Shown: positions 15,572-25,188 of the stretch, in pieces
Layout of the letters: every line of letters begins with the position of its first letter
Numbering within the stretch: the first letter of the stretch is position 1
NCBI RefSeq assembly: GCF_026810365.1
Contig: NZ_CP113948.1
Span: 1,017,001 to 1,081,000, forward strand
DNA: 64,000 bases
Reading direction: 5' to 3'
Source: Flavobacterium praedii
Lineage (GTDB): Bacteria; Bacteroidota; Bacteroidia; Flavobacteriales; Flavobacteriaceae
Notes under the pieces: model-generated
Told to the model about the DNA's origin: nothing
The model's input: only the letters and a program-made list of their open reading frames with translations
The model's database searches: none
Translations under genes and position numbers: made by a program

Positions 15572-16495
15572 TTAAGATAAGTTCATCGTAGTACCTGCCA
15601 TAACTTTGAAAATGGTATTGTTTATTTTGATATAAACATTAATGGCGCTTGTATTGGTCACTATATTTTTATCTATCGAGAATTTCAGGTTTCTAAACGC
15701 ATTGATATAATCAACCAAATCAATTTGTTTGGAGTAATATATTGCTTCATTATTGGCTAATATTTTAAAGAATTTTTCGGTTTCATTCCATTTGTTTTGG
15801 TCCGTTCCCATTTCCCAACTGTGTCCCCAAATATCTAATACAGCCAATTCTTTGGTTTGCAAAAAATCTTTAATAACGGTATAAAAATGTGCCATTTCTT
15901 GAGCATCTTTCTCTGGTTGGTTGGGCTCCCAATACGCTTTCGCAAATTGATGCATCGTTGGAAACCATCTTAAAAAATCTTTTGGGATTTCAAAATTGTA
16001 TGTATCTCCAACGGTTCTGGCGTATTCAATTCCCAGTCCATTCATGGCATCAATTACAAAATCGTTGGTATTACCAAAAGGATAAGCCATTCCTCTCACG
16101 GGATATCCCATCAAGCGTTCGAGCTCTTTTCGATCTTCTACAATTTCATAAATGACGTCTATCTTAGAAATATCAGGTAAATTGGGATGATTAGCCGTAT
16201 GTACTGAAACTTCGTGACCTTTATAAAGATCCTTCATTTCAGTTCTATCAAGATAACTGGTTGTGCCCAGTTTGTTAGAATTTAAATGAAAAGTTCCCAC
16301 AAGATGATATTTATTCATCAATTTTACCAATTGTCGGTCTTCGGTTCTGCCATCATCATAACTCAAAATTAGTGCTTTTGTTTTCCCTTCTGGAAAAAGC
16401 ATTTCAATTCTGGTAGCACTTTTAGCAATTTCAGGATTGGTTTGAGCAACCGTAGAAAAAGCAATCAATAACAGTAATAGGGATATTTTTTTCAT
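15572..16495 (-). CDS. Secreted polysaccharide deacetylase (CE4/NodB-like)
   Basis: A 307-residue exported protein; the ATG at 16495 gives the signal peptide MKKISLLLLLIAFSTVAQ. A longer start at 16543 would overlap the regulator gene and place the signal internally. The NodB motifs are LSYDDGRTEDR (catalytic base Asp and metal Asp) and HEVSVHTANHPN (metal His pair), then GMAYPFGN and DIWGHSWE. It would remove N-acetyl or other acyl groups from a surface glycan or peptidoglycan. It starts 19 bases after the LytTR regulator and is probably in the same transcript. Confidence 0.85.
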   Translation of the reverse strand: MKKISLLLLLIAFSTVAQTNPEIAKSATRIEMLFPEGKTKALILSYDDGRTEDRQLVKLMNKYHLVGTFHLNSNKLGTTSYLDRTEMKDLYKGHEVSVHTANHPNLPDISKIDVIYEIVEDRKELERLMGYPVRGMAYPFGNTNDFVIDAMNGLGIEYARTVGDTYNFEIPKDFLRWFPTMHQFAKAYWEPNQPEKDAQEMAHFYTVIKDFLQTKELAVLDIWGHSWEMGTDQNKWNETEKFFKILANNEAIYYSKQIDLVDYINAFRNLKFSIDKNIVTNTSAINVYIKINNTIFKVMAGTTMNLS

Positions 16496-16514
16496 AAGTA
16501 TATAATGTTTGTGT

Positions 16515-17270
16515 TTAATTATCCAACCATTTTTTGAAATCATTAACGCGATCCCGGCTTACAATTCTAGCATCAGTATCCAGAAATTTTGTAGCAATAG
16601 ATAAGCGGCTGTTAAAATACGTACTGACTTTCTCTATCGAATGAATATTTAGGATTATTTTCCTGTTGATTCGGAAGAAATTTTTGGGTTGCAACATTGT
16701 TTCTAGTTGGTCTAAGGTATAATCAATAAGATGGTGATTTCCTTTTTTCGTAACTAAAAAAGACAAACTTTCTTTGGTTTCAAAATGATGAATTTCATCA
16801 ATTGGAATAGTATCAATGGTTTGACCAGATTTGACTAAAAAACGTGTTTTAAATTCTTTATTCAGTTGTTGATACGCTGTTGCAATACTCGAAATAAGAT
16901 CTTTGTTTCCTGATTTTTGTTGCTTTTTAAATTTCGCTATAGCAAATTCTAATTCTTGTAATCCTATGGGTTTTAGCAAATAATCAACGCTGTTTTGCTT
17001 AAAAGCTTGAATGGCATAATTATCGAAAGCGGTGGTAAAAATAACAGGAATATCTAGATTTATTTGATTGAAAATCTCAAAACTATTCCCATCCGCCAGA
17101 TGAATATCCATGAAAATTAAGTCGGCATTTAAGCCTTCTCGGAAAGCTGCTACCGAAGTTTTAATCGTATCGAAATACTCCATTACAATTATAGCTGTGT
17201 CTATTTTCTGCAAGAGAACCGTCAAATGTTCTGCTGATAATTTTTCGTCTTCAATAATGACAACTTTCAT
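16515..17270 (-). CDS. LytTR-family response regulator
   Basis: A 251-residue two-component regulator. The receiver domain (1-120) has the acidic pair IIEDE, the phospho-acceptor Asp in LIFMDIHL near residue 57, and the Lys in LLKPIG. The C-terminal LytTR DNA-binding domain covers about 145-250 (TIPIDEIHHFETKESLSFL, then FFRINRKIILN). It lies 83 bases after the LytS-type kinase gene, its evident partner. LytTR regulators bind pairs of short direct repeats; I could not define a site. Confidence 0.9.
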   Translation of the reverse strand: MKVVIIEDEKLSAEHLTVLLQKIDTAIIVMEYFDTIKTSVAAFREGLNADLIFMDIHLADGNSFEIFNQINLDIPVIFTTAFDNYAIQAFKQNSVDYLLKPIGLQELEFAIAKFKKQQKSGNKDLISSIATAYQQLNKEFKTRFLVKSGQTIDTIPIDEIHHFETKESLSFLVTKKGNHHLIDYTLDQLETMLQPKNFFRINRKIILNIHSIEKVSTYFNSRLSIATKFLDTDARIVSRDRVNDFKKWLDN

Positions 17271-17353: not shown

Positions 17354-18364
17354 TCATCTTCTTTGGATTAAAGGTAAAATTACTTTAAAAATTTTGCCGT
17401 TGTTAGAAATGATAACTTTGTCATCAGTAAAAAATGAGTAGCGTTTTTCTATATTTTTCAAACCTGTTTTTGTACTGTCGGCAACGTTGCTTCTTGGCAA
17501 AATGGGGTTTTCGATTATTAATGAATTGTTCTCCGTGTAAATTAAAACTTTCAACGGATTGGCTTGCGAAGTTTCGTTATGCTGAATGGTATTTTCGACC
17601 AGCATTTGCAAACACATTGGTAATAGAAAATCATTTTTCTTGCTTTCTTCTATTTTTATTTCAAAAAGTATACTTTCTTCAAATCGAATTTTTTGCAGAT
17701 AGATATAATGATTTATAAAATCCAATTCTTCTTTTAAGGGTACTAATTCTGAATTTTTATTATCCAAAACATAACGATAGACTTTGGATAATTCATTGAT
17801 AAAATGAGCGGCTTTGTCTTGATTTTTATAAACCAACGAAGTCAAAACACTGAGATTATTGAACAGAAAATGCGGATTCAATTGATTTTTTAAATTTTCC
17901 AATTGTGCATTGGCACTTTCTGTTTTGTATTTTTCGACTTCAAGCAAGCTATTTTTTAAGGCATTAAAAAACTCAGTTCCAATTTTTATAGATAAAAGTA
18001 CAAGAGTAAAGAGTATGGCTGGAGGAAATATTTCCATCATTTTACGATCGATAATCCTACCATCACCAAATCTTAATTGATGAAGCGTATACATCAATGT
18101 AAATAAGGTAATTGATGTAAAAAAAAGCGAAAGTAAACTCTGAATAATCAATCTTTTTTTTGCGTTTTCAATCCAAGGATGTCTCGTATTTAGAAAACCG
18201 TCGATAGCTTCATTTCCTTGCCAAATAATCAGTACAATTGCTGTAATAAATACTAAATCCCACTCAAAAAAATCCTCAATCCGAAAAAAGACAATTTTAA
18301 AAAAGAGTGTTATTGCAACCGCAATCCCTAATTTTTGTGTTATTTTAAATTTTGAATTCTTCAT
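17354..18364 (-). CDS. LytS/YehU-type sensor histidine kinase
   Basis: A 336-residue membrane kinase. The first 140 residues hold about four membrane spans with short loops and no large periplasmic domain. The His-kinase domain has NPHFLFNNLSVLTSLVYK, with His in NPHF as the phosphorylated residue, and the ATP-binding region MLVENTIQHNE and TGLKNIEKRYSFF. It pairs with the LytTR regulator 83 bases downstream. The region directly before its start codon holds a relic of a TonB-receptor tail. Confidence 0.9.
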   Translation of the reverse strand: MKNSKFKITQKLGIAVAITLFFKIVFFRIEDFFEWDLVFITAIVLIIWQGNEAIDGFLNTRHPWIENAKKRLIIQSLLSLFFTSITLFTLMYTLHQLRFGDGRIIDRKMMEIFPPAILFTLVLLSIKIGTEFFNALKNSLLEVEKYKTESANAQLENLKNQLNPHFLFNNLSVLTSLVYKNQDKAAHFINELSKVYRYVLDNKNSELVPLKEELDFINHYIYLQKIRFEESILFEIKIEESKKNDFLLPMCLQMLVENTIQHNETSQANPLKVLIYTENNSLIIENPILPRSNVADSTKTGLKNIEKRYSFFTDDKVIISNNGKIFKVILPLIQRR

Positions 18365-18470: not shown

Positions 18471-18863
18471 TTACTTGGGAGGATTTCCTTCGTGTGGTGG
18501 ACGAGTCGATTTTTCGAGTTCGAGATACTTTACAAATACATTTTCAGGGATGACTTTTTTTACTTTGGAATCTCTAATTTTTGCAAGTGCCTCTACTTTC
18601 GGTTTTTCCGGCATACGGGGTGGATTAGATTTAAAATCAATTAACTTATCCATTTCTGTAAAAAACTCCTTGTAGACAACACTTATTTTTGCCGTTTGGT
18701 TTTTGTCGAGTTGGAGTGGTTGACAAATTTTTTCGTTTACCATTTTTAATCGTTCTTCAATGGTGGGGGGTTTACGTCCTTTTCCATCAGCTTGGGGCTG
18801 GGCAAAGCAAAAACCTGCAAATAACACAGTAAATAAGGAAGTTATTACAATAATTGATCTCAT
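18471..18863 (-). CDS. Small exported Pro-rich protein, possibly Spy/CpxP-like
   Basis: A 130-residue protein with a signal peptide ending GFCFAQ. The mature part is helical and highly charged with Pro-rich stretches (GKGRKPPTIEERLKMV, NPPRMPEKPK, RPPHEGNPPK). The layout recalls Spy/CpxP periplasmic chaperones, which are helical with LTxxQ motifs; here one QLDKNQ sits where such a motif would be, which is weak. It sits between the TonB receptor and the kinase, 67 and 106 bases from them. Confidence 0.55.
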   Translation of the reverse strand: MRSIIVITSLFTVLFAGFCFAQPQADGKGRKPPTIEERLKMVNEKICQPLQLDKNQTAKISVVYKEFFTEMDKLIDFKSNPPRMPEKPKVEALAKIRDSKVKKVIPENVFVKYLELEKSTRPPHEGNPPK

Positions 18864-18930: not shown

Positions 18931-21912
18931 TTAAAATTGTAATTTATAAATAAAATTAGGAAAAAAGCCCAATTGATAGGTTGTATTCAAACTCATATTT
19001 TTAGTATCATACGTTTGTGAAAATATATTTTTATGATTGGTCACATTTTGTAAATCCAATGAAAAGGATTGGGATAGTTTTTTGGTTTTGCTATTAATGG
19101 TATAACTTCCTTTTAAATCCAATCGAAAATAATTTGAATAATTGGCCGAATAGGCAGCTGTTGAAAATACTTCTTGACCCGTTGTTTGCGAAGCTGTTAG
19201 GTCTATTGGTGTATAAGCCCTACCGCCAGCATTGGTGAACTTAAGGTCTGTCGAAATTTTATTTTGACCACCTACTTTCCATTCTTTTCCTCCTAAAATA
19301 TTAAAAACATATTTTCCGTTGAAAGCCGTATTTCGCTCCACGCCATCGCTTCCTTTGTATTTTGAACTGTACAAAGACGATGTAAACAAACCGTAATACC
19401 CCTTACTGAAGAATTTTTCAATGGTAACTTCTGCACCATAATTGGTTCCAGTTCCTGCATTGACCAGATTGTCTTCCAAATCGGTTTTGAAGCTTGAACC
19501 CGTGTTCAACATCGAATAACTGCTGGAAAAAGTATTCACTGGAACATTAGAAATAGATTGATAATAGACTTCGGTTTTCACCCTCCAATCTTGAAACGGT
19601 TGCAAATCGTATCCTAAAACAAAATGCTGACTTTTGGTAAAATCTAAATTTTTGTTGTTAAAAGCATACGAACCATCCGTTTTTTGAGTTTGCAAAAAAT
19701 ATACATTTATCGGCTGCATTTGCGAATGCAATCCATACCCCAAACTAAAACTACTGTTGCTATTTACAGCATATTTCAACCCTAATCGTGGTTCAATTGA
19801 AACCGAATTATTCAAGAAAAACTTTTGCGAATGCATGCCTGCATTTAAAGTTAGTTTTTCGTTAAGGTTGAATTTGCCATGAAAAAACACTTGCGCCAAA
19901 TTTGTAAAACTGCTTGTATCCCAAACCTGTTTCCATGCATCAGTATTATTTTGTTTTGTTTTATAAAATAAATCCAAGCCCATCAATTCATCTTGAATAC
20001 CTGCTTTTATAAAAAATTTGGAGTTTACTTTTAAACTATAAGTAGAGCCAAAATTATAGCCCGTTTTGGCCACATTGCTAACTTCTTTGGAAAAAGAAGC
20101 GTTTGCCATTCTGTCAAAATCATACGAAGTTTGGTCTGTTTTAGAATAATTCAATCCAATAGTCGAACTGATAAATGATTTGGTATTGATTTGTTTGAAA
20201 TGATTCAACCCTACTATTCCAATTTTACTAGCAAAATCAACTTGATTGCCGTTTCCGTATAAAGAATTTGAATTTCCACCATCAATATTTATGGTGCTGG
20301 AAGCCAAAATTCCGAACATGGAGAATTTACCCAATTTAGAGGTACCGCTGTTCAATTTAAACGATAAATCTTGATAGGACGGAGTTGCTGTTGTCCCGAT
20401 ATCAACACCAACCAGTTTAGCAACTCCTGCTAATCCGTAGCGATATCCTACCAAATAGGAAGAACCTTTTTCTTTGTTTATGGGGCCTTCAGTCGTGGCT
20501 TCAAGACCAGTAATAATTCCCAATTGAATGGTAGTTTCTCGCTTTTTTGAATTTCCATTTCTAAAACCAATATCAAAAACACCCGAAGTGGCATTCCCAT
20601 ATTCAGCTGGAAAAGCGGATGTAAAGAAATCGGAATTCTTCAACAAATTGGTATTCAATGCACTTACGGCTCCTCCAGTCGTCCCAACCGATGCAAAGTG
20701 ATTGGGATTGGTCACATTCATTCCGTCAATTCGCCACAAAACACCAACCGGAGAATTTCCTCTAATAACAATATCATTTCTGCTATCATCGGGCGTGCTT
20801 ACACCCGCAAAATTGGCGGCCAATCGGGCAACATCGCTTCTGCCGCCTGCAAAGCGATTGACTTCTTCCATAGAAAATGTTCTCGCACTTATGGAGGCCA
20901 ACTTATTAATCGTGCCCGCTTTGTTGGATGTTTTTATAACCACTTCGTCCAGTTTTTTATATTCATCTTCCATCGTTATATCCAAAATCACTTCTTTACC
21001 CGAAGTTACAATCACATTTGGAATTACAACTTCTTTATAGCCTACAAACGTGACTTTAATTTCGTAACGATCAGGAGTAATATCTGTTAGAGTATAATTC
21101 CCTTTTTCATCGGTTACCGTTTGTTTTTCGGAATTGTTTATTTGCACGGTTGCCCCAATTAGGGCTGTTTGCGATAGTTTATCGATCACAATTCCGCGAA
21201 TATTCTGCTTGTTATTTTGAGCAAATGTAGCCGTAGAAAGGAACAGAAGAAAAAGTAATTTTTTCGCCCCAAGTGTAGGCTTTATTCGTTTGAAAAATAG
21301 CACAATACTCAACAGTAGCACTATTAATAAACCCCAAAAAAATAAAGGCGACATTGCTTTGTCTGAATTTGCAGCTGTTGATTTCCATTTCCCATTTTCT
21401 AAAACCAAATTAATTTCTTGCTTATTTTCGTTATTCAAAACGAAAAGTTGGTTGGGCAAGCCTTTTTTTAAAATAATCAAGGAGCTCTGATTGTGTGGAA
21501 TATCCATAAAAAGTGTATTTTTAAAATACATCGATGTGATTTTTTTTGGAAAACCAAATACCTCTGTTACCAATTTAGTTTCATGTCCTAACAAAACTTG
21601 TGGTTTACCAAATTTAAGCGTGTCTTTTGCATTACAAATAAACAAAACACTTTTGTTGAAATGGGCTATTACTAATGCTCGGAATTCTTCGGGTGTTTTG
21701 TATGCATTTTTTGAATATTTATAATCAACCTCACCTTCAAAAGCGGTTAATGAACTGTAGATCTGCAAAAAGCATTTCCCTGTTTCATCTTGATAAATCA
21801 TTACGGTTGACAAATCCGGCTGATGTGCAAATATTGAAAAACTATAAAAAAGGAACAGAATTCCAATTATATATTTTTTCTTTGTTTTGGGATTAAAATA
21901 ATTAGTTAACAT
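18931..21912 (-). CDS. TonB-dependent receptor fused to an N-terminal membrane-anchored domain
   Basis: A 993-residue protein with two parts. Residues 1-30 are a signal peptide (FAHQ cleavage region); 30-185 a soluble extracytoplasmic domain of unknown family; 189-209 a membrane span, ending in the basic FFKRIKPTLGAKK. A second signal-peptide-like segment (LLFLLFLSTATFAQ, about 216-230) then begins a standard TonB receptor: a CarboxypepD-regulatory-like domain (about 233-320), a plug with NDIVIRGNSPVGVLWRIDG, and a beta barrel ending in NFIYKLQF. The start overlaps the preceding YHYH gene by 11 bases, giving translational coupling. No in-frame start codon lies directly before the second signal. 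The ligand is unknown. Confidence 0.85.
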   Translation of the reverse strand: MLTNYFNPKTKKKYIIGILFLFYSFSIFAHQPDLSTVMIYQDETGKCFLQIYSSLTAFEGEVDYKYSKNAYKTPEEFRALVIAHFNKSVLFICNAKDTLKFGKPQVLLGHETKLVTEVFGFPKKITSMYFKNTLFMDIPHNQSSLIILKKGLPNQLFVLNNENKQEINLVLENGKWKSTAANSDKAMSPLFFWGLLIVLLLSIVLFFKRIKPTLGAKKLLFLLFLSTATFAQNNKQNIRGIVIDKLSQTALIGATVQINNSEKQTVTDEKGNYTLTDITPDRYEIKVTFVGYKEVVIPNVIVTSGKEVILDITMEDEYKKLDEVVIKTSNKAGTINKLASISARTFSMEEVNRFAGGRSDVARLAANFAGVSTPDDSRNDIVIRGNSPVGVLWRIDGMNVTNPNHFASVGTTGGAVSALNTNLLKNSDFFTSAFPAEYGNATSGVFDIGFRNGNSKKRETTIQLGIITGLEATTEGPINKEKGSSYLVGYRYGLAGVAKLVGVDIGTTATPSYQDLSFKLNSGTSKLGKFSMFGILASSTINIDGGNSNSLYGNGNQVDFASKIGIVGLNHFKQINTKSFISSTIGLNYSKTDQTSYDFDRMANASFSKEVSNVAKTGYNFGSTYSLKVNSKFFIKAGIQDELMGLDLFYKTKQNNTDAWKQVWDTSSFTNLAQVFFHGKFNLNEKLTLNAGMHSQKFFLNNSVSIEPRLGLKYAVNSNSSFSLGYGLHSQMQPINVYFLQTQKTDGSYAFNNKNLDFTKSQHFVLGYDLQPFQDWRVKTEVYYQSISNVPVNTFSSSYSMLNTGSSFKTDLEDNLVNAGTGTNYGAEVTIEKFFSKGYYGLFTSSLYSSKYKGSDGVERNTAFNGKYVFNILGGKEWKVGGQNKISTDLKFTNAGGRAYTPIDLTASQTTGQEVFSTAAYSANYSNYFRLDLKGSYTINSKTKKLSQSFSLDLQNVTNHKNIFSQTYDTKNMSLNTTYQLGFFPNFIYKLQF

Positions 21913-22882
21913 AAGCTCCTTTCAAACAATTAATAAAATTATTTGCTCCAGCTTTGTCTACATGATAATGATATCCTCTTATTGCATCACTATGTCCTCT
22001 GCATTCATCGAGATCGGTTGATTCAGCTCCTTTTGTATCCAGTCTTGCATACAATCCATGACCATCAATTGCATAACCAATCATAGGTGCATGTCCATCC
22101 GTTTGGGCAATTTCTTTCGATTTTCCATTGGCTGCATGATAATGGTAACCCGCTCCCAAATTGATATGTCCACCGGCATCGTCAAATGGTGCTAGTGTAT
22201 ATGCTGCCAAAATAATGCTAACCGGTGCCGGAGCATCAAATCGAACTCCGTTAAAAGCAATTCCTCTTAGACTAGGTCCAGAAGATTGTGGCCCCATTCC
22301 GAATTGTATGGAATTAGTTAGTTTAACAGGACTTACTGGGAGATAATAGGTTTGAGTTAAATTAGCAACGTACGAAGGTAAACATTCCACACAAAAATTT
22401 TTGTATTCTGGTCCTACACTTGGGTTTGCAGCTGCCTGGCATTCGGCTTGTGTTTTGGTTTTAATCACTTCGCCTGTACTACTTTTGTACATCATCCAAG
22501 TAGGATCAGAAAAAAAAGTGGCTAAATTTTTTATAAATGCACCATCCACATCATATACATTTCCGTCTTTTAACCAAATTCCACCAGCATCTGCTCCATC
22601 CGAAATATTTGTGGGACACCATGGACCCATCGCATGATCAGTGGGAGTACCTTTGCTAACAATTTTATAACAATCCACAGTTGTTCCATTTGAGAGTGTC
22701 TTGGAAACAATACTTATTGGTTCCGCTAATCCTGCAAGAATAAAATTATCCGAATTTACTTTTACAACGGTGCTAACAGTTGTGTCAACTGCATTTTCAT
22801 TGTCTTTGCTACATCCGAAAGTAATTAATACTATTACAATTAGCACTGCTATTTTCTCGATTTTGATTTTTTTGTTTTTCAT
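21902..22882 (-). CDS. YHYH-domain lipoprotein (second copy)
   Basis: A 326-residue lipoprotein with signal peptide and Cys in LITFGCSKD. It has the repeated histidine motif that names the family: GAGYHYHAANG and GYHYHVDKAG, with HAPMIGYAIDGHGLYA between them. Several Cys pairs (AECQ, FCVEC) are also present. The YHYH family has no assigned function; clustered His and Cys suggest metal or cofactor binding, which is inference. It starts 11 bases after the SCO gene and overlaps the receptor start by 11 bases. Confidence 0.85.
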   Translation of the reverse strand: MKNKKIKIEKIAVLIVIVLITFGCSKDNENAVDTTVSTVVKVNSDNFILAGLAEPISIVSKTLSNGTTVDCYKIVSKGTPTDHAMGPWCPTNISDGADAGGIWLKDGNVYDVDGAFIKNLATFFSDPTWMMYKSSTGEVIKTKTQAECQAAANPSVGPEYKNFCVECLPSYVANLTQTYYLPVSPVKLTNSIQFGMGPQSSGPSLRGIAFNGVRFDAPAPVSIILAAYTLAPFDDAGGHINLGAGYHYHAANGKSKEIAQTDGHAPMIGYAIDGHGLYARLDTKGAESTDLDECRGHSDAIRGYHYHVDKAGANNFINCLKGAYVN

Positions 22883-22893
22883 ATTAAGTTTTT

Positions 22894-23544
22894 TTAGTAG
22901 GTTTCTTTTTCTAATGTTTTGATATCATCCAGCATTTGTTGCATTTCCAATTCCAAAGTTCCGTTGTAAATGCCTCTTATTCTTTTGGTTTTATCCACCA
23001 AAATAAAATGTTCTGTATGCAGGAATTCCGTGCTGTCTTTACTAAAACCAATGTCTTCTTCGGCAAAATAGGATTTGCGGGCCAAACTGTAAATGTCATT
23101 TTTAGAACCCGTCAGAAAATGCCAATTTGGATTCGAAATTTCATTTTTAGCTTTATAATTTTTTAATACAGTCGGTGTGTCAATCCAAGGCGTAACCGAA
23201 TAGGAGAGCAATACAATATTGGAATGGAATTTTAGGCTTTCGTTTACAATTTTTAGGTTGGTTGTCATTTTTGGGCAAATGCTGCCACAGGTCGTGAAGA
23301 TAAAATTGGCAATGTGAATTTTCCCTTCAATCGATTTTTGAGAAATCAGAATACTATCTTGATCCCAAAAAGAAAAATTAGCAATCGTGTGTTTGATTTT
23401 AGATTCCATTTCGGATTTATCGGTAAGGAATATTGGCGTGAATTCGGGCTCGTTATAATAGGGTAAAGCAATGGCTTCCTCTTTTTTATTCGAACAACTT
23501 ATCAATATTAAACTACTGAACAACAAAAACACTATCCGATACAT
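22894..23544 (-). CDS. SCO1/SenC-family copper-binding thioredoxin-fold lipoprotein
   Basis: A 216-residue protein starting at MYRIVFLLFSSLILISC, chosen because it gives a signal peptide with a lipobox; a longer frame start at 23574 is less likely. SCO proteins deliver Cu to the CuA site of cytochrome oxidase or act as thiol-disulfide enzymes. The Cu ligands are present: CxxxC in FTTCGSICPK and the distal His in LHTEHFILVDK. No cytochrome oxidase genes are nearby, so it may serve the YHYH/TonB system. It overlaps the MORN gene end by 32 bases. Confidence 0.88.
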   Translation of the reverse strand: MYRIVFLLFSSLILISCSNKKEEAIALPYYNEPEFTPIFLTDKSEMESKIKHTIANFSFWDQDSILISQKSIEGKIHIANFIFTTCGSICPKMTTNLKIVNESLKFHSNIVLLSYSVTPWIDTPTVLKNYKAKNEISNPNWHFLTGSKNDIYSLARKSYFAEEDIGFSKDSTEFLHTEHFILVDKTKRIRGIYNGTLELEMQQMLDDIKTLEKETY

Positions 23545-24082
23545 TTTTACAATTTTTAGTTCCCAATAAACCATATCTTTTTCCTTTTATAATTACATAG
23601 TTGGCTCTAATTTTGCCATTGTCATACCATAATTTTTGACTTCCTTCTTCCTGACCGTCTTTAAAATGTGCCAAATGAATTAATTTTCCATCGAACGTCC
23701 ATTCGCTCAATTCGCCTTCATATCCATCATTTTTGGCAATGAATTCAAACCGTTTGTTTCCGTTTTCCCAATAAGCCAATTGTTTTCCGTTCTTTTTCCC
23801 ATTGAAATAAAAACGTGATTCCATCAGTTGTTTGTTGGGATACCATTTTTGGCAAACGCCACTCAATTGACCGTTGATAAAACCTTCTGAAGAAATAGTA
23901 TCTTGATTGGGATATAATTCAAATAAAAAACCGGAATATTTTTCTTTATTTAAATAGACAACATCATTCAAAACCGTAATTTCTTTGGATGATTTTAGGC
24001 TATAGATTTTAGGTACTTTTGACTCATTCTTGGAACAGGAACAAACCAAAAGAAACAGAAAATAAATTTTGAAAAATTTCAT
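23513..24082 (-). CDS. MORN-repeat (YwqK-type) lipoprotein
   Basis: A 189-residue protein with a lipoprotein signal (LLVCSCSKN) and several MORN_2 repeats: SEGFINGQLSGVCQKWYPN, ESRFYFNGKKNGKQLAYW, LAHFKDGQEEGSQKLWYD. Databases often name such proteins YwqK-family antitoxins, but no toxin partner is visible and this copy is exported, so an antitoxin role is unlikely. It begins at the base after the stop of the first YHYH gene and overlaps the SCO start, so it belongs to the operon. Confidence 0.8.
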   Translation of the reverse strand: MKFFKIYFLFLLVCSCSKNESKVPKIYSLKSSKEITVLNDVVYLNKEKYSGFLFELYPNQDTISSEGFINGQLSGVCQKWYPNKQLMESRFYFNGKKNGKQLAYWENGNKRFEFIAKNDGYEGELSEWTFDGKLIHLAHFKDGQEEGSQKLWYDNGKIRANYVIIKGKRYGLLGTKNCKNVSDSVFVVQ

Positions 24083-24862
24083 TTATTGTGAAATAGTTCC
24101 AGGTGTTCCGTAAAATCCGTTTCCGTTTAAATAGGGTGCTTCATCGGTAAAATGGTAATGATAAATACCATTTGGATAATCAACAGTTGCGTGAGTATGA
24201 CCGTGATAAACATCTAAAACGGCATTGGTAACCACCGTTCCGTTCTCTTCTTGTGGGCCATAAACAGGAAAACCATCCAATAAAAATCCTATCAAACCCG
24301 ATTTTGTCGATTTTACAGTAGTTAAATACAAAGGCTCCACGTGATAATGATACACTCCTTGTTGTTGTGGATGTCCATAATATTTGTCGAAAGTGGCAAT
24401 TTCGCCTGTCAAAGCTTGGTTGTTAGGTCCTGCATATTGGTTGAAAAGCGCCACTCCATTTATAGCTACACCAATTGCACCTAAAGGCGTAGCAGCATGT
24501 GTCGAAGCCACTACAGGATTTAATGGTATTTTGATTGTAGCGGTTTGTTCAATTATCGAATTTGGATTTTTGACAAAAGTATTACCACCAAAAGTGGTTC
24601 CAGAATAGGATTCGTATAAGGCATTAGTTGTTGGATAATAAGCACTTTTATGATCTGGCAGATCTTTTGTTTTAATGTAAATATAGGTTCCATCACTGGT
24701 AATGCTGGTCGCTCCATATATTTTTTTGTAAACAGCTGGGATTTCAGTTGTTGCTGTGGTTGTATTTGTTATGGTATCTTCGCTGTCATTATTACTGCAA
24801 CTTATAATGCTGCCAAAAGCAATTCCAATTACTAACAAAGCACTCATTTTTATATTTCTCAT
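24083..24862 (-). CDS. YHYH-domain lipoprotein (first copy)
   Basis: A 259-residue lipoprotein with Cys in SIISCSNND. The two family motifs are QGVYHYHVEP and GIYHYHFTDE, with GHPQQ and DVYHGHTHATVDYPNG adding His. It is a divergent paralog of the other YHYH protein in the same operon. It is the first gene after the operon promoter, and its stop abuts the MORN gene start. Confidence 0.85.
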   Translation of the reverse strand: MRNIKMSALLVIGIAFGSIISCSNNDSEDTITNTTTATTEIPAVYKKIYGATSITSDGTYIYIKTKDLPDHKSAYYPTTNALYESYSGTTFGGNTFVKNPNSIIEQTATIKIPLNPVVASTHAATPLGAIGVAINGVALFNQYAGPNNQALTGEIATFDKYYGHPQQQGVYHYHVEPLYLTTVKSTKSGLIGFLLDGFPVYGPQEENGTVVTNAVLDVYHGHTHATVDYPNGIYHYHFTDEAPYLNGNGFYGTPGTISQ

Positions 24863-25188
24863 ACTTGAATATTTTAAAGTTTATTCAAAAGTATTTCTTG
24901 TATTCGCTTCTAAAAAGTTAGTTTTGGTTGAGTTGTAGAAAAATCGTGTTGAGTCGTTATAGAGACACAGTTTTCAAAATTTGCAAAGGTAGTTTCGAGA
25001 ATTTTTTTTTTCAATACTAATAAAGCAAACTGACAAAGTTAATTAAGCACTTTCTTCATTGAATTGGCGTTAATTCGTGTCAAATTTTTGTCAAGTCTAA
25101 ATTGTGACGACTTTCAAAACAATAATAAAAAATTAATCTTAAATACTTCATCGTCTAGTTGTTATAAAATAAACTATTTAATAACTTT
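24863..25188. other. Intergenic region between the YHYH operon and the LOG gene
   Basis: Apart from the minus-strand promoter listed separately, this divergent intergenic region is AT-rich and shows no ORF or strong hairpin. Confidence 0.4.
24984..25014 (-). promoter_or_regulatory. Consensus promoter of the YHYH-SCO-TonB operon
   Basis: On the minus strand: TTG (25012-25014), 20 bases, TACCTTTG (24984-24991). Both boxes match the flavobacterial consensus TTG-N(17-23)-TAnnTTTG. Transcription should begin near 24976, leaving a leader of about 115 bases before the first YHYH start. Confidence 0.65.

Follow-up and report, generated by a model that had tools for sequence, protein, structure and literature searches.

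A conserved YHYH-MORN-SCO gene triad of Bacteroidota, part of a predicted envelope metal-handling operon in Flavobacterium praedii

What task could bring together, in one densely packed operon, two YHYH lipoproteins, a MORN-repeat lipoprotein, a relative of the SCO1/SenC copper chaperones, and a TonB-dependent receptor? This combination occurs in Flavobacterium praedii at positions 18,931 to 24,862 of a 64,000-nucleotide stretch of contig NZ_CP113948.1 (positions 1,017,001 to 1,081,000), to which, in its full length, we refer as the window. The question bears on more than a single genome: the YHYH family (PF14240) is widespread (one query alone has 3,946 homologues at E 1e-5), we found no experimentally tested function in the literature examined, and a conserved genomic neighborhood suggests what its job may be. 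An earlier note, made from the sequence alone, had proposed that the five genes act jointly in the envelope on a metal such as copper, behind one promoter and possibly under a LytS/LytTR pair downstream. The analysis described here finds that the conserved core is three genes, YHYH-MORN-SCO. We propose that it belongs to an operon with which Bacteroidota handle a metal, most likely copper, in the envelope, and give the model as stated below an even chance of being right; that some transition metal is handled here, a less specific claim, is rated above the full model.

All five open reading frames (ORFs) lie on the minus strand as the earlier note had described them. The core encodes YHYH lipoprotein A (24083..24862; 259 amino acids; PF14240, 89.6 bits, cut-off 25), the MORN lipoprotein (23513..24082; 189 amino acids; MORN_2, PF07661, 36.4 bits, cut-off 29.6), and the SCO lipoprotein (22894..23574, with a start at 23574 or 23544; 226 amino acids; PF02630, 73.5 bits, cut-off 22.8). 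A second module begins with YHYH lipoprotein B (21902..22882; 326 amino acids; PF14240, 41.9 bits, cut-off 25) and continues into the TonB ORF (18931..21912; 993 amino acids). The family identities read by eye in these proteins are borne out by the Pfam scores, and most of the spacing stands as well: YHYH A and MORN abut with no base between them, an 11-base gap separates SCO from YHYH B, and YHYH B overlaps the TonB ORF by 11 bases. The 32-base overlap of MORN and SCO holds only from the SCO ATG at 23544, probably the start that reader had used, and is 62 bases from the first ATG. A PF14240 search places the only two YHYH genes of the genome in this operon; three further SCO genes lie elsewhere.

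The core genes stand in a row in 39 of 41 regions, namely the window and 40 regions hand-picked from a family search around YHYH matches of the small type, and two less biased tests were added to this sample. When genome contigs were scanned with a YHYH alignment alone, the triad was present in 75 of 80 named loci, these being the best 80 of at least 526 confirmed stretches and hence the nearest relatives; three of the exceptions (L079, L120, and L127) are contigs without a gene after MORN. In a draw of 392 genomes from the phylum, of which 42 have any YHYH match and 22 a full-length one, the triad was found at 19 of the 22 full-length loci, the window's genome included. The exceptions here are L201 and L202, with YHYH and SCO but no MORN call, and L196, where YHYH-MORN is accompanied by an uncalled ORF of 212 amino acids. 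Eight further loci of the draw, with weaker YHYH matches of another type, have neither MORN nor SCO within about 1.5 kb on each side. Within the genus, some YHYH match occurs in 72 of 249 genomes and the window's type (E 8.4e-78 or better) in only 18, and all 17 further genomes with this type carry the triad. Triad-bearing loci apparently span the Flavobacteriales, Cytophagales, Chitinophagales, and Sphingobacteriales, and for a genome of about 4.2 Mb that encodes four SCO proteins we estimate the probability of an SCO gene in the neighborhood by chance at well under 1 in 100. Because the triad recurs across four orders in different surroundings and is patchy within the genus, it appears to move and to stay together.

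The remaining genes are another matter. The check that the earlier note had put forward, co-occurrence in other genomes, clearly supports a linkage of YHYH, MORN, and SCO and does not support a conserved unit of all five genes. Of 130 distinct cassette loci, selected for an SCO gene no more than three genes from YHYH, 127 have MORN followed by SCO. The Flavobacterium restrictum locus (L074) has the core, a kinase, and a regulator, with no second YHYH gene or receptor in the 16.8 kb examined, and in some near relatives the receptor is deleted or cut short.

Several patterns were observed in the surroundings of the cassette. In L125, L126, L135, L138, L141, L144, L150, and L152, an AhpC/TSA-like gene flanks it on one side and a fatty acid hydroxylase gene on the other (L150 was scanned with Pfam). 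Dense clusters with EF-hand, CotH, DUF3500, and DUF6090-like genes surround it in L053, L054, L038, and L055, where the YHYH proteins carry, by eye, EF-hand-like tails; these clusters hint at a calcium-linked envelope locus. In the Dyadobacter loci L101, L106, and L111, the cassette lies beside very large proteins, which in L101, the one scanned, match DUF6807, DUF7133, and cytochrome c.

What do the proteins themselves suggest? In the YHYH family, H164, H172, H174, D196, D217, H222, H235, and H237 are invariant in all 143 aligned sequences, some genomes being counted twice, and H71 and D159 are kept in 140 and 142 of them. YHYH A has this invariant set; YHYH B shows the same His/Asp pattern and is 54-62% identical to its counterparts in L038, L054, and L055. 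As a pattern, rather than residue by residue, these His and Asp residues fit the metal-binding site predicted for YHYH domains in the available part of PMC7824862, and a structure model of the protein resembles predicted phage YHYH structures (E 1.5e-11). A signal for surface export of lipoproteins (LES), consisting of polar and then acidic residues at +2 to +6, is described in the available part of PMC5080379. By charge count, not by exact motif, YHYH lipoproteins are acid-rich in this position on average and MORN and SCO lipoproteins are not: two or more net acidic residues follow the lipid-anchor cysteine in 49 of 90 YHYH, 5 of 59 MORN, and 4 of 78 SCO proteins, the sequences with a box by a loose lipobox pattern (90 of 121, 59 of 119, and 78 of 116, respectively). 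The acidic stretch of YHYH would suit surface exposure, for which it is suggestive at most.

In the SCO protein, the CxxxC motif and His ligands reported earlier are intact. Both cysteines (C96 and C100) are present in all 137 aligned sequences, and H186 and D132 in 136, with one gap each; copper binding or delivery by the window SCO is predicted from its family and this conserved site. Roughly one in three cassette SCOs, together with that of the window (39 sequences), went into a tree along with the three SCOs encoded elsewhere in the genome. The tree groups the window SCO with L075, L082, L078, L091, and L112, among Cytophagales and Chitinophagales sequences and away from most loci of its own family, a placement that suggests horizontal transfer; L154 falls among the cassette rows, and three branches are long.

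An independent line of support for a role in metal handling comes from a domain hidden in the TonB ORF. The large receptor that had been described is present by its domains, but the ORF is composite: as read from its sequence, it is a fusion of an N-terminal part comprising a signal peptide, a DUF6702-like domain, and a transmembrane helix (about residues 1-214, the helix at about 189-214; 21271..21912, minus strand), a second signal-peptide-like stretch (AKKLLFLLFLSTATFA, residues 216-231; 21220..21267, minus strand), and a receptor (18931..21219, minus strand) that matches CarbopepD_reg_2 (PF13715, 62.9 bits, cut-off 32.2) and Plug (PF07715, 25.6 bits, cut-off 23.9). At the junction, the helix is followed by a positively charged stretch and then by the signal-peptide-like stretch, and signal peptidase probably frees the receptor. 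Sequencing error is unlikely since two contigs of metagenome-assembled genomes carry the same fusion (L075, 995 amino acids; L076, 993 amino acids), with a similar internal stretch; among the matches listed in a search of 397 genomes of the family, only the window's genome has the long fused frame. No match of the ORF to the β-barrel family PF00593 is listed at E 0.05; it terminates in Phe, a common last residue of barrels.

The N-terminal domain is a distant relative of DUF6702 (PF20420). The first 237 residues cover nearly the full model with 15.4 bits, under the cut-off of 24, and comparison of the domain with eight Pfam-confirmed DUF6702 proteins gives an hhalign probability of 97.5 and E 8e-12. 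Of 52 members of the domain family, 13 match DUF6702 at E 0.001; L038 (27.0 bits) and L163 (24.9) exceed the cut-off, and L078 and L172 give no match. A histidine occupies the apparent mature position 1 (residue 30 in the window; cleavage site placed by eye) in 144 of the 145 sequences that have the position. The first control for such histidine-first proteins used a cruder pattern than the family alignment column, so that its two rates were not measured alike; a recount with a single pattern gives 31 of 322 near YHYH versus 10 of 452 further away. Foldseek matches the predicted fold to the zinc proteins ZrgA and PA4063, and the features that mark Ang-1 of the anglerases, the 9gce fold together with His1, both appear in the modeled window domain. 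In the available text of PMC12537917, in vitro binding of Ni, Co, or Cu is shown for members of the DUF6702/Ang family; for the window domain, copper binding is a prediction only.

Searched alone in the 397 family genomes, the domain gave a match at E 0.001 in 46. In the 21 best loci (L158-L178, window included), all 23 copies have a YHYH gene directly before them, whereas none of 9 weaker loci (L179-L187) does, and the eight of these that were scanned are all DUF6702. In L038, L054, and L055, the domain is a separate gene of 205-220 amino acids directly behind YHYH B. Elsewhere, in L255 and in L075 (13655-14764), an anglerase-like domain is fused to a HupE/UreJ permease, which the window lacks, having the TonB receptor instead. 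Natural fusions of the histidine-first domain with YHYH in one ORF were also observed, in L079 (7190-8518) and, by profile matches only, in L088 (1-1221), which is cut by the contig start; L211 (949-2583) encodes a YHYH protein of 544 amino acids with histidine first after an apparent signal peptide. Beside a different type of YHYH, a DUF6702-like histidine-first protein is a close neighbor in 7 of 30 loci (L009, L010, L011, L012, L014, L017, and L032), five of which had built the search profile and one of which (L017) was Pfam-scanned.

The receptor, for its part, seems dispensable and fast-changing, perhaps under selection by phages or toxins. Its middle is lost in frame with both ends kept in P0012 and P0022, metagenome contigs in which assembly errors are possible, and it is cut short in P0001 (Flavobacterium sp. 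IMCC34518). A Plug domain occurs in 4 of 44 large neighbors scanned, out of 67 found. L101 and L078 had been considered as receptors by size, and have DUF7133/cytochrome c proteins instead.

How the operon is controlled can be addressed in part. The evidence for one consensus promoter, as claimed in the earlier note, is weak: sigma-70-like sites are no commoner in the region than in shuffles (26 versus a mean of 36.2), and the TACCTTTG box (24991-24984) shows no conservation. A candidate promoter box, TACTTTTG (24886..24893, minus strand), fits TAnnTTTG, which we take to be the Bacteroidota -7 consensus. It is identical in the window, L074, L075, L076, and L077; as these relatives are close, shared ancestry adds to its conservation. 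The suggested LytS/LytTR control fares better. Downstream on the minus strand lie a LytS-type kinase gene (17354..18364; PF06580, 93.5 bits) and a LytTR regulator gene (16515..17270; PF04397, 66 bits; PF00072, 48.5 bits), with His_kinase, Response_reg, and LytTR domains. Proteins of the LytTR kind recognize direct repeats, and a candidate operator of this type, ACAACTCAAC-N11-ACAACTCAAC with 1 mismatch (24927..24957, minus strand), lies 95 nucleotides before the first gene as the only match in 64 kb at 3 mismatches or fewer, where 0.01 is expected. The repeat recurs at 94-96 nucleotides in L074/L256, L075, L076, L077/L253, and L255 (about 0.003 expected per 400-base window), although L074/L256 and L077/L253 look like the same contigs; L112 has a weaker copy with 3 mismatches at 155 nucleotides. 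Of eight loci with a strong match to the window kinase (7 genomes), six have the repeat and two, L078 and L081, lack it; in L076, L077, and L253, the repeat is present and the contigs end before the expected place of the kinase. The kinase gene directly follows SCO in L074, L078, L081, and L112.

More broadly, a LytS/LytTR pair lies within eight genes of 12 of the 130 cassettes, window included, and an ECF (extracytoplasmic function) sigma factor gene near a Metal_resist-like gene lies within six genes of 35. The two arrangements never coincide at one cassette, compared with about 3 expected coincidences (12 x 35 / 130). Different bacteria appear to have placed the operon under one or the other of two regulators. 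The Metal_resist-like cluster has 34 members; of the 33 scanned (L051 was left out), 20 match PF13801 and 10 LTXXQ. The ECF/Metal_resist enrichment has no matched control, as the 30 loci with other-type YHYH (1 with the pair) extend over only about 3 kb and are too short. Between the receptor and the kinase, the window encodes an exported protein of 130 amino acids (18471..18863, minus strand) with homologues in the L075 and L255 operons (210.6 and 188.4 bits); it matches no Pfam family over cut-off and is Spy/LTXXQ-like by eye only. A polysaccharide deacetylase gene (15572-16543), whose listed start overlaps the regulator gene by 29 bases, may be the end of the operon.

In the model that we favor, the SCO lipoprotein would carry copper on its CxxxC/His site and hand it to the YHYH lipoprotein at the invariant His/Asp site, and the MORN lipoprotein would serve as an adaptor that holds the two together. 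The histidine-first periplasmic domain of the second module would capture metal and pass it on, its partner being a HupE/UreJ permease in relatives and here the TonB receptor, joined through a fusion that is probably cut by signal peptidase; the LytS/LytTR pair would act on all of this through the direct repeat. Gene linkage, conserved residues, the predicted-fold match, the fusion, and the repeat are what the sequences supply. From these we infer the metal, the direction of transfer, the role of SCO as a chaperone of YHYH, the cleavage, and the binding of the regulator. Copper is favored because of SCO; nickel and zinc are also possible. A bolder form of the model makes the YHYH proteins a new class of envelope, and possibly surface, metalloproteins with a fold unmatched in the PDB, which receive copper from an SCO lipoprotein while histidine-first anglerase domains provide the supply; it is put forward tentatively and may well be wrong. 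Given the DUF6702-like neighbor of the second YHYH type, it might extend to a large part of the family, including the members from phages and algae.

Several observations weigh against the copper model. L094 and L142, the other exceptions among the 80 loci, have YHYH-SCO and no MORN call, and L049 and L073 have YHYH and MORN and no SCO call. The second module is near only 14 of the 130 cassettes, and a receptor of the window's kind is within six genes of 4, some loci being cut by contig ends. The YHYH structure model, of modest quality (pLDDT 74.7), has no fold match in the PDB, and the Foldseek TM-scores of the histidine-first domain are modest (0.43 for ZrgA and 0.31 for 9gce, by query length). 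A dedicated clade of cassette SCOs had to be given up as the tree did not separate them from the other three SCOs of the genome, and no Metal_resist match was found in the window's own genome. As far as the available text of PMC12537917 goes, PaDUF6702 prefers nickel, with His1, His28, and His32 as modeled ligands, for which the window offers H110 as a candidate only. Moreover, if YHYH is exported to the surface, the outer membrane would separate it from SCO on the inner side, and direct transfer becomes difficult to envisage other than before export.

SCO proteins can also be thiol oxidoreductases that do not move copper. In one rival reading, YHYH would be a zinc-dependent envelope hydrolase, acting for example on peptidoglycan or a surface polymer, with SCO as its thiol-disulfide partner or redox sensor and the catching domain supplying Zn or Ni. 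For phage YHYH domains, a zinc site of three His and one Asp has been predicted and a hydrolase suggested (PMC7824862, in the part available); the fold match of the catching domain to ZrgA and PA4063 and the sulfatase, CotH, and EF-hand genes near some cassettes point the same way. We nevertheless consider this explanation rather unlikely, since SCO keeps His and Asp along with both Cys (136 of 137), more than a pure thiol enzyme seems to need, and part of the loci lean to metal sensing, as the 20 Metal_resist matches in the neighbor cluster indicate. Those same neighbors, at 35 of 130 cassettes with the ECF sigma factor, would suit protection against excess metal, with YHYH, SCO, and the histidine-first domain serving as a sink for copper or another metal and not as a source. 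So would the Spy-like small protein of the window operon, the AcrB-type transporters among 2 of 44 large neighbors scanned, and the lack of substantial enzyme activity reported for DUF6702 and Ang proteins in the available text of PMC12537917. The fusions with a TonB receptor and a HupE/UreJ permease point instead to uptake, and, as a weak argument, no P-type ATPase or multicopper oxidase is among ten recurrent neighbors or the first 25 of 131 families; we hold protection to be unlikely.

Uptake could also be the whole purpose, with the TonB receptor as the main player at a nutrient locus for a surface polymer or metal chelate and the YHYH proteins as substrate binders. The receptor in the operon, the acidic residues that suggest surface export of YHYH, and the phage YHYH domains found beside lectin and tail proteins (in the sources as far as available) are compatible with this. 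It is very unlikely all the same, as a receptor like the window's is missing from the six-gene surroundings of 126 of the 130 cassettes, some near relatives have lost or truncated theirs, and no SusD family was found among ten window proteins scanned with Pfam. That the genes are neighbors through chance or shared ancestry only, without joint function, agrees with the synteny to housekeeping genes seen at some of the Flavobacteriaceae loci; set against the triad in four orders, in varied surroundings and at 18 of 249 genomes in the genus, it is extremely improbable.

No account of this operon was found in the literature on YHYH, DUF6702, and anglerases, a coverage that excludes most subscription papers and all preprints. 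The phylum-wide link of YHYH to a copper chaperone, and its separate link to a metal-binding family, make assays feasible in culturable strains, and the anglerase-like domain is seen in apparently new architectures, in which it lies behind YHYH or forms one ORF with a TonB receptor or, in L079, with YHYH. The window SCO resembles the SCO1/SenC copper chaperones (PF02630) in its CxxxC, His, and Asp residues and family score, but differs by its lipid-anchor cysteine and its tight linkage to YHYH and MORN. With the phage and algal YHYH proteins (PF14240; PMC7824862 and PMC11992049, as far as their text is available), the window proteins share the conserved His/Asp site and a similar predicted structure, while being envelope lipoproteins in an SCO operon rather than tail proteins. 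CnrYXH-type trios sense metal, and many relatives of the window operon are similar to them in having an upstream ECF sigma factor, often a protein of about 100 amino acids, and a Metal_resist-like protein; in the window, the LytS/LytTR pair takes the place of such a trio. The histidine-first domain is like the DUF6702 metal sequesterases (PF20420) in profile and N-terminal His, but falls under the family cut-off, has an invariant GHET histidine and a C-terminal transmembrane helix, and is immediately preceded by YHYH in 21 of 21 loci, which sets it apart from the 9 ordinary DUF6702 loci. From the anglerases (Ang-1 with a HupE/UreJ-2 permease; PMC12537917, PDB 9gce), it differs by its single transmembrane helix, its fusion to a TonB receptor, and its travel with YHYH, a word that occurs 0 times in the main text of that paper as available. 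The parts of the operon are members or relatives of known families, while their combination, spread, and fusions are apparently undescribed.

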